DNA of 64,000 nucleotides from Aliihoeflea aestuarii (GTDB lineage: Bacteria; Pseudomonadota; Alphaproteobacteria; Rhizobiales; Rhizobiaceae). The notes beneath the pieces were generated by a model. It saw only the letters and a program-made list of their open reading frames with translations, was not told the origin of the DNA and ran no database searches. Positions 7,062 to 8,068 of the stretch are shown in pieces. The stretch covers positions 372,001-436,000 of the forward strand of contig NZ_JAAAMK010000001.1 of assembly GCF_024105665.1 (NCBI RefSeq), in the 5' to 3' direction. Position numbers and translations under genes: made by a program. Every line of letters begins with the position of its first letter. Position 1 is the stretch's first letter.

Positions 7062-7358
7062 ATGTCCCGCGCATGTGAACTGACCGGCAAGGCTGTACTG
7101 ACCGGCAACAACGTAAGCCACGCCAACAACAAGACCCGGCGCCGCTTCCTGCCCAACCTCGTCAATGTCACGCTCCAGTCGGAAGCGTTGAACCAGAACG
7201 TGCGCCTGCGCATTTCGGCCAACGCGCTTCGTTCGGTCGAGCATCGCGGCGGCCTCGACGCCTTCCTGATCAAGGCGAAGACGGACGAACTGTCGCAGCG
7301 CGCGCGTCTGTTGAAGAAGCAGATCACCAAGAAGACCGAGGAACAGGCGATCGCCTGA
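7062..7358 (+). CDS. rpmB: 50S ribosomal protein L28
   Basis: Large-subunit ribosomal protein of 98 residues, the extended length found in alphaproteobacteria. The N terminus [33 protein letters not shown] is the L28 signature (CELTGK, N-V-SHA-NKT-RRF-PN), followed by [23 protein letters not shown]. The C-terminal extension is lysine-rich and probably contacts rRNA. It stands alone on the plus strand, 83 nt before the VUT gene. An 8-bp GC-rich hairpin at 7384-7413 follows it but has no U-tract. Confidence 0.97.
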
Positions 7359-7413
7359 TTCCTTCCCGCTTCAGTTTTCCGACGACGCGCGCTATCTGAC
7401 CGATACGCGCGTC

Positions 7414-7447
7414 GACTGGTTCCATCACCCAGGCTAAAAAAATGAAT
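7414..7447 (+). promoter_or_regulatory. Probable preQ1-I riboswitch overlapping the VUT start codon
   Basis: The leader has the hallmarks of the small preQ1 class I aptamer: a P1 stem CTGG (7416-7419) pairing with CCAG (7429-7432), the conserved GGTTC after the 5' strand, CACCC before the 3' strand, and an A-rich tail of seven A residues (7436-7442). In a preQ1-I pseudoknot the tail pairs with the loop; here loop CAT (7423-7425) is complementary to the start codon ATG (7442-7444). Ligand binding could therefore block initiation directly. The AGG at 7431-7433, the only ribosome-site candidate, also lies partly in P1. The adjacent gene is a queuosine-precursor transporter, a known target of this riboswitch class. 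Confidence 0.7.
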
Positions 7448-8068
7448 GCACAGACTCTTTCCGTCTGGCCCTTCGTGGTTGCAATGGCCTTCGTGGTCGT
7501 CATCTCGAACGTGCTCGTCCAGTATCAGTTCGAGCATTTCGGCCTCGGCGAGCTCCTCACATGGGGCGCCTTCACCTATCCCTTCGCCTTCCTCGTCAAC
7601 GATCTGACGAATCGTCGCTTCGGTAACGCCGTGGCGCGACGCGTCGTCTATGTCGGCTTCGCGCTGGCCGTCGTCCTGTCGGTCTGGTTCGCCTCGCCGC
7701 GCATCGCCATCGCGTCGGGAACCGCATTCCTCACGGCGCAACTGATCGACATTTTCGTCTTCGACCGCCTGCGCCATCAGGTCTGGTGGCGCGCGCCGCT
7801 CGTCTCGGGCATCATCGGTGCGCTCGTCGATACGGTTCTGTTCTTCTCCATCGCCTTCGCGGCCCGCTTCGCCTTCCTCGACACGGGGCTTGGCCTCGAA
7901 GACGGCTCGCTCGCCTTCACCGTCCCGTTCATCTTCGGTGGCGAGGCGCCTTTGTGGGTACAGCTTGCGATCGGCGATCTGATGGTCAAGCTCGCAATCG
8001 GTATCATCGCGCTGGTGCCCTATGGCGCACTCCTATCGGTAATCCGGCCGGTCCCCGCAATTCGGTAA
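7442..8068 (+). CDS. VUT family queuosine precursor transporter (YhhQ-like)
   Basis: Inner-membrane protein of 208 residues with about six membrane segments, of the Vut_1/YhhQ family that takes up the 7-deazaguanine precursors preQ0/preQ1 for tRNA queuosine synthesis. Family blocks seen are FAFLVNDLTNRRFG near residues 48-61, SGTAFLTAQLIDIFVFDRLR with the conserved aspartate and arginine, and WWRAPLVSGIIGALVDTVLFFSIAF. It is preceded by a probable preQ1-I riboswitch that reaches the start codon, which fits the predicted substrate. It converges on the phytase-esterase-like gene with a 4-nt gap. Confidence 0.85.
   Translation: MNAQTLSVWPFVVAMAFVVVISNVLVQYQFEHFGLGELLTWGAFTYPFAFLVNDLTNRRFGNAVARRVVYVGFALAVVLSVWFASPRIAIASGTAFLTAQLIDIFVFDRLRHQVWWRAPLVSGIIGALVDTVLFFSIAFAARFAFLDTGLGLEDGSLAFTVPFIFGGEAPLWVQLAIGDLMVKLAIGIIALVPYGALLSVIRPVPAIR

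Follow-up and report, generated by a model that had tools for sequence, protein, structure and literature searches.

A type III-like class I preQ1 riboswitch candidate that would include the start codon of a queuosine precursor transporter gene in Rhizobiaceae

The transporter gene and its leader in Aliihoeflea aestuarii

The window, a stretch of 64,000 nucleotides from Aliihoeflea aestuarii, carries downstream of rpmB (TIGR00009) a 208-codon open reading frame that matches Pfam Vut_1 (E 2.5e-24) and the TIGR00697 queuosine precursor transporter (99 bits, cut-off 50.95). Ending in its start codon is a 29-nt leader element at 7416-7444, which reads CUGG-UUCCAUCAC-CCAG-GCUAAAAAA-AUG; in DNA letters, CTGG (7416-7419) is followed by the loop TTCCATCAC (7420-7428), CCAG (7429-7432), GCTAAAAAA (7433-7441) and ATG (7442-7444). 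The first-pass annotation had seen here a minimal preQ1-I-like riboswitch made of GGTTC and CACCC segments, a 4-bp P1 and an A-tract running directly into the ATG of a queuosine-precursor transporter. Sequence, predicted fold and profiles agree with each of these parts, and the 4-bp P1 is present in the predicted minimum free energy (MFE) fold; the start of the element, placed at 7414 in that annotation, is corrected to 7416. The loop CAT at 7423-7425 is complementary to the ATG, as had also been noted. The features of the locus are as follows, with residue numbers in the register of the E. coli type III riboswitch (extracts of PMC10622847).

7416-7419, + strand: 5' strand of P1, CUGG, from the MFE hairpin; CTGG in 104 of 105 matching family leaders and CCGG in one
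7420-7422, + strand: U6, U7 and C8, putative pocket and ceiling residues, from the E. coli register
7422, + strand: partner of the +4 base in relatives whose loop has G at position 7, from loop/+4 covariation
7423-7425, + strand: C9, A10 and U11, anti-start codon and 5' strand of P2, complementary to 7442-7444; the neighbouring pair covaries
7426-7428, + strand: N12, A13 (gatekeeper-like) and C14 (position of the specificity base), in register with E. coli UUCCCUCAC and directly 5' of the P1 3' strand
7429-7432, + strand: 3' strand of P1, CCAG, from the predicted fold and the family leaders
7431-7433, + strand: Shine-Dalgarno (SD)-like AGG, partly within P1 and 8 nt 5' of AUG, with a putative function
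7433-7441, + strand: A-rich linker L3, from the linker types across 105 leaders
7441, + strand: probable counterpart of E. coli A27 (register with extracts of PMC10622847)
7442-7444, + strand: start codon AUG, 3' strand of P2; ATG in 105 of 105 leaders, though the search pattern allowed GTG and TTG
7445, + strand: +4 base A, unpaired in the window; it pairs with position 8 in relatives with a GG or GC loop
7442-8068, + strand: gene for the YhhQ/QPTR queuosine precursor transporter, 208 aa, from the reading frame and profile matches

Taken from the window sequence alone, the element is no better than chance. The fold energy of a 37-mer is at shuffle level (z 0.48; 130 of 200 shuffles at least as stable), and GGTTCN{2,8}CACCC has a chance expectation of 0.74 occurrences per window. 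What raises the element above chance is that it is conserved at one fixed place ahead of the same gene, that the genome has a single strong match and that P2 covaries, all described below. A strong GC hairpin is predicted at 7383-7414, one base 5' of P1. Of 104 family leaders, 79 have a predicted hairpin of -8 kcal/mol or below that ends at most 12 nt from the element, and TTT is present in 30; such a hairpin may perhaps often be the terminator of the preceding gene abutting the aptamer.

A match to the Rfam PreQ1 model had been proposed as a check, and none was obtained: at the gathering threshold, and over 7359-7500 at E values up to 10, Rfam returned nothing relevant and no RF00522 match (a mir-275 match near the element was set aside as chance). 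RF00522 also gave 0 matches across 240 genomes of the class, with a positive B. subtilis control. Since the same model misses the type III element of E. coli yhhQ as well, its silence here is uninformative.

Conservation and covariation in Rhizobiaceae

The transporter protein was matched in 143 of 151 genomes of the family. The leaders examined number 112, from 110 of these 143 genomes and from two further members found in a genus search; 80 of the 110 genomes came in two full batches, and the remainder were selected before their leaders had been seen, mostly by skipping second members of a genus. The element lies directly at the ATG in 105 of the 112 homologous leaders, and at the same position in all five genus genomes searched. 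The first-pass annotation had made its proposal depend on conservation in homologous leaders, and within the family an absence of conservation is excluded by this count. The leader pattern fixes GGT, CAT and AAAA, which are hence invariant by construction among the 105 matches, and leaves free the two bases before CAT, the +4 base and the choice of ATG, GTG or TTG.

The span from P1 to AUG is 29 nt in 95 of the 105 leaders, and the linker is GATAAAAAA, yielding AGGA, in 81. The two bases 5' of the P1 3' strand are AC in 94 leaders, CC in 7 and UC in 4 (L107, L023, L084 and L125); UC at this place is given as a mark of type I (extracts of the review PMC11625349). One of these four, L107 (genome G105), has a GC-subclass element whose linker is 4 nt longer (CGACACCAAAAAA) and still ends in ATGG. 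P1 is so nearly invariant that its covariation inside the family is scant, with one compensatory case, in which CCGG faces a matching CCGG arm (L080), and one U-G wobble (L169). The seven leaders missed by the pattern were read by eye: L071 holds a decayed copy of the element, L094 perhaps a remnant, and in the other five (L057, L086, L097, L101 and L115) none was recognised. Four of the seven belong to small genomes of 1.1-1.5 Mb (L071, G114; L094, G010; L097, G096; L101, G094), in which the transporter is kept and the element lost or decayed.

The covariance model R1 finds one strong match in the window genome, at 52.4 bits, with the next best at 14.1. In 249 genomes of the order it gives 9 matches of at least 49 bits, all within Rhizobiaceae. 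Weak R1 matches outside the family (11 genomes, 21.3-23.5 bits) were taken as chance, with no YhhQ nearby; tblastn found no YhhQ in 17 loci (50,386 bases) around weak matches, including four weak matches of the window genome itself. Among the best-scoring yhhQ leaders of other families the element was found in 0 of 26 in the order and 0 of 29 in the class, and no rhizobial phage carrying the gene, as judged by organism name, was among 17 phage records with a match. Four yhhQ leaders of genus g177 in family f44 (L279, L281, L284 and L289, from G345, G234, G269 and G299) share GGGCTAT(T/C)(C/T)TCCCAT shortly 5' of AACAT and SD-like purines; this may be a promoter, another RNA element or mere relatedness.

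Named records with the element include Rhizobium, Sinorhizobium, Ensifer, Brucella oryzae, Bartonella callosciuri, Chelativorans and Ca. Tokpelaia, as well as S. meliloti Ak57 pSymB and Rhizobium sp. NLR16a p3, in both of which rpmB again precedes the gene. A pattern search of contigs, with a pattern that recovers only members with a shorter A-tract, gave 13 matches, of which 10 precede the transporter gene (judged by translation) and 3 are unrelated. One of the 10, L159, is titled Marinicella sp. W31, and its frame breaks after 57 codons.

The two loop bases before CAU are UC in 58 leaders, GG in 38 and GC in 9, and they vary together with the first base of codon 2. A GGCAU loop is accompanied by AUGC in 38 of 38 leaders and a GCCAU loop by AUGG in 9 of 9, such that wherever position 7 is G, position 8 and the +4 base form a Watson-Crick pair (G-C or C-G) and lengthen CAU/AUG into a helix of four pairs. 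In the 58 leaders with U at position 7, the +4 base is A (28), C (19) or U (11) and C8 never has a pairing partner there (AUGG in 0 of 58), although among long ATG reading frames of the window G is the most frequent +4 base (15 of 21, starts as predicted).

On a tree of the 112 transporter proteins, the loop type changes at least 11 times and the +4 base at least 29 times. When +4 was evolved on the tree independently of the loop, 20,000 runs gave a mean of 30.6 violations of the rule and a minimum of 11; the observed number is 0. Split by loop type, runs free of violations numbered 0 for GG, 0 for GC and 1,274 for UC, and the missing +4 G in UC leaders is suggestive only. A two-state tree test gave no significance to the link between GG and +4 C on its own (p 0.25), because the GG cases are mostly one large group. 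Independent pairs number two per contrast on strongly supported branches, and 4 and 7 on all branches, with none contrary; they are too few for a sign test. The outcome of a whole-structure shuffle control (n=500) was mixed: the number of paired cells was reached by 0 of 500 shuffles and the covariation score by 3, the number of cells with change on both sides by 97, and two other measures by all 500. Altogether, the covariation between loop base 8 and +4 argues that the loop CAU pairs with the start codon, so that a P2 between the two is supported. The pseudoknot with the start codon, the central claim of the first-pass annotation, draws further support from a both-sided change relative to E. 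coli, to which we now turn.

Comparison with E. coli type III and other pseudoknot riboswitches

The E. coli yhhQ leader carries a type III preQ1-I riboswitch (extracts of PMC10622847). In K-12 this leader (L156) reads UUGGG-UUCCCUCAC-CCCAA-...AAAAAGG, and its linker matches the GGUUAAUC given in the same extracts for the riboswitch that was measured, whose KD for preQ1 is 57.9 nM. Shortening the linker did not weaken binding, and the shortened form was crystallised (extracts of PMC10622847); the rhizobial linker is short. The E. coli P2 consists of U11-A28, C10-G29 and C9-G30, the triples U7-A27-preQ1 and C8-A28-U11 are described, and A13 is a possible gatekeeper (extracts of PMC10622847). 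Fifty-nine genomes of the phylum match E. coli YhhQ at E 1e-30; the best 30 of them, probably mostly gammaproteobacteria, formed an E. coli-type set for comparison. The loop GGGTTCCCT occurs in 27 of these best 30 loci and the full element, UUCCCU...AAAAAGG in register, in 24, or 25 with K-12. Two leaders near that of E. coli (L316 and L336) keep the loop as GGGTTCCCT(C/A)ACCCC, and the AAAAAGG tail is not seen in them, which suggests decay or a changed platform.

The rhizobial loop UUCCAUCAC is one base apart from UUCCCUCAC (C10 to A10), and in the rhizobial UUCCAU...AAAAAAAUG its partner has changed as well (G29 to U29), turning the 3' strand from AGG into AUG. Pairs across the two groups were counted by anchored patterns; a joint alignment misplaces the E. 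coli-type tails. With CAT and AGG fixed in these patterns, every E. coli-type leader (25 of 25) has C-G at pair 10-29 and every rhizobial one (105 of 105) has A-U, and pairs 9-30 and 11-28 are C-G and U-A in both. The second pair of P1 is G-C in the 25 E. coli-type leaders, U-A in 104 rhizobial leaders and C-G in one. The middle pair of P2 is A-U here and C-G in E. coli because AUG, the start codon, takes the place of the SD sequence AAGG as the 3' strand.

As in class I preQ1 riboswitches generally, there is an A-rich 3' linker, here GCUAAAAAA, and an H-type pseudoknot, of which P1 is predicted and has one compensatory CCGG/CCGG case and P2 follows from covariation. With E. coli type III in particular the element shares the target gene family, its location before yhhQ (from profiles and family leaders), the H-type pseudoknot, a short P1, the A-rich L3 and the pairs C9-G30 and U11-A28. 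The window has UU after the P1 5' strand, as do 58 of 105 relatives (UG in 47), and AC, with the specificity base, before the P1 3' strand, as do 94. As to the pyrimidine-rich loop of type III, UUCCAUCAC has one purine (A10) more than UUCCCUCAC, and G7/G8 occur in the subclasses. However, the two differ in the P2 3' strand itself, which is AUG in 105 of 105 rhizobial and AGG in 25 of 25 E. coli-type leaders; in the latter the next ATG lies 6 nt (15 loci), 7 nt (9) or 3 nt (1) after AAGG. Measured alike, the span comes to 29 nt in 95 of 105 rhizobial leaders, to 34 nt in K-12 and to 28-34 nt across the 25 E. coli-type loci. Position 7 is G rather than the U of E. coli in 47 of 105 rhizobial relatives, in which a fourth P2 pair is formed with codon 2. 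Type III is described as almost exclusively gammaproteobacterial (extracts of PMC10622847), or as almost exclusive to Pseudomonadota with AAGG hidden (extracts of the review PMC11625349), whereas the element described here belongs to Rhizobiaceae. Since AAGG was looked for in P2 and AUG was found, we class the element as a variant rather than as a member of published type III; of the earlier label 'preQ1-I-like', the likeness to class I stands, narrowed to type III-like. Judged by their sequences, the rhizobial and E. coli elements look like one design in which the P2 3' strand has moved from the SD sequence to the start codon.

The type II class I switches (Tte, Bsu) also have AC before the P1 3' strand; their loop sequences differ from that of this element, their expression platform is formed by SD bases (Tte) or a terminator (Bsu) instead of the start codon, and RF00522 detects B. 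subtilis but not this element. A further likeness would lie in the A-amino contacts of L3 with P1 (extracts of PMC11625349). The SAM-II and SAM/SAH riboswitches, direct-occlusion H-type pseudoknots, are similar in that the aptamer P2 includes the ribosome-binding site (extracts of PMC10907184). They differ in their ligands and in the part that is hidden, namely the ribosome-binding site, which typically lies in the 3' helix; the extracts of PMC10907184 make no mention of a start codon in P2 of either.

As far as the searched literature shows, this start-codon-capturing, type III-like variant of class I is new, in that no description of it was found. Searches on preQ1 riboswitches in alphaproteobacteria, rhizobia, start codons and yhhQ gave no such element among the best matches listed; McCown et al. 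2014, reportedly the source of type III, lay outside these searches. 'Start codon', 'AUG' and 'rhizobi' are absent from the texts of PMC10622847 and PMC11625349, and the latter, a review, has 'initiation codon' once, about ribosomal protein S1. The element is not described in the extracts of PMC2258182, PMC3766115, PMC1273637, PMC11109978, PMC8632094, PMC10907184 and PMC9373788.

Proposed control of the transporter and competing readings

We consider it very probable that the transporter is controlled at translation by this element, acting as a type III-like class I preQ1 riboswitch with the whole translation start within the aptamer. From the likeness to the E. coli structure we infer preQ1 as the ligand, the contacts in the pocket and repression as the outcome. 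P1 (CUGG/CCAG) would hold part of the SD-like AGG at 7431-7433, with the A-rich L3 strand as spacer, and the AUG at 7442-7444 would be the 3' strand of P2, paired to the loop CAU at 7423-7425. When preQ1 is plentiful, it would lie between P1 and P2, where it would pair with C7428 and contact U7420, U7421 and A7441; P2 would then close over the ligand and keep the AUG from the P site, and synthesis of the importer would stop. When preQ1 is scarce, P2 would open and the gene would be translated. That its product would repress the importer is proposed after the finding in E. coli (extracts of PMC10622847). Against the riboswitch reading stand 11 of 105 leaders that do not have AC before the P1 3' strand, and a published type III consensus that hides AAGG, not AUG.

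The same pseudoknot might bind another ligand, such as preQ0, queuine or another 7-deazaguanine, perhaps only in the G7 subclass, and this we regard as unlikely. The window genome has matches to QueF and Tgt, and for QueC only two matches of about 25 bits, below the cut-off of 150.3. It should therefore depend on an imported precursor, which would be preQ0 or preQ1. A second YhhQ-like gene of this genome lies directly beside queF (L007, 1390-1953 and 1958-2689, minus strand), and R1 has no match there. A QueF match is missing in 22 of 61 family genomes searched, some of them incomplete, so that the sensed compound could differ, and the element occurs without QueF in 16 of 45 genomes cross-tabulated. 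The 47 of 105 relatives with G at position 7, where the E. coli U holds the ligand-contacting A27, cannot have an identical pocket. On the other hand, the window loop equals that of E. coli save for the base compensated in P2, E. coli type III strongly prefers preQ1 over preQ0 (extracts of PMC10622847), and loop subclass shows no evident link with the presence of QueF in the 45 genomes. The YhhQ of Bartonella henselae, expressed in E. coli, salvages preQ1 and, together with its Tgt, also queuine above 500 nM (extracts of PMC11570991); the word 'riboswitch' is absent from the text of that study.

Because the covariation speaks for pairing with the start codon and not for ligand binding, it would also suit an RNA structure that works without a ligand, dampening or timing initiation or serving as the site of an RNA-binding protein. 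Such a role is improbable, as the likeness to E. coli reaches the unpaired U6, A13 (in most leaders), C14 and the A-run, and also the gene. An operator or promoter overlapping the start codon at the DNA level, with CTGG...CCAG as half-sites, would account for the short inverted repeat and the extreme sequence conservation, but not for the Watson-Crick covariation that links base 8 to the first base of codon 2, 23 nt away, nor for the both-sided change against the E. coli element, and no sigma-70-like promoter was seen in 7250-7460 in a search for sigma-70-type patterns; we hold it to be very unlikely. A chance resemblance, in which a short GC-rich stem and an A-tract happen to precede an ATG, fits the chance-level pattern and fold energy of the window and is next to inconceivable given an element in 105 of 112 homologous leaders and one strong match in the genome.

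Returning to the preQ1 riboswitch, we lean towards the broader view that it may constitute a fourth subtype of preQ1-I, whose ligand-binding fold would have the initiation codon as one of its strands and whose aptamer would constrain not just that codon but also the base that opens codon 2. The subtype would comprise two subclasses of the ceiling, an E. coli-like one with UC and one with G7 and a fourth P2 pair, which would have been repeatedly interconverted and may differ in ligand preference. Translational preQ1 riboswitches are framed by the SD sequence in the 2024 review, which names riboswitches in mRNAs without an SD sequence as a challenge for the field (extracts of PMC11625349). The element, present in 105 of 112 leaders of a single family, would be a compact case of a start codon that serves as the expression platform, with coevolution that extends into the coding sequence, and its natural loop/+4 variants make start-codon capture directly testable. 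It would also give Rhizobiaceae a queuosine-salvage switch that Rfam has missed.
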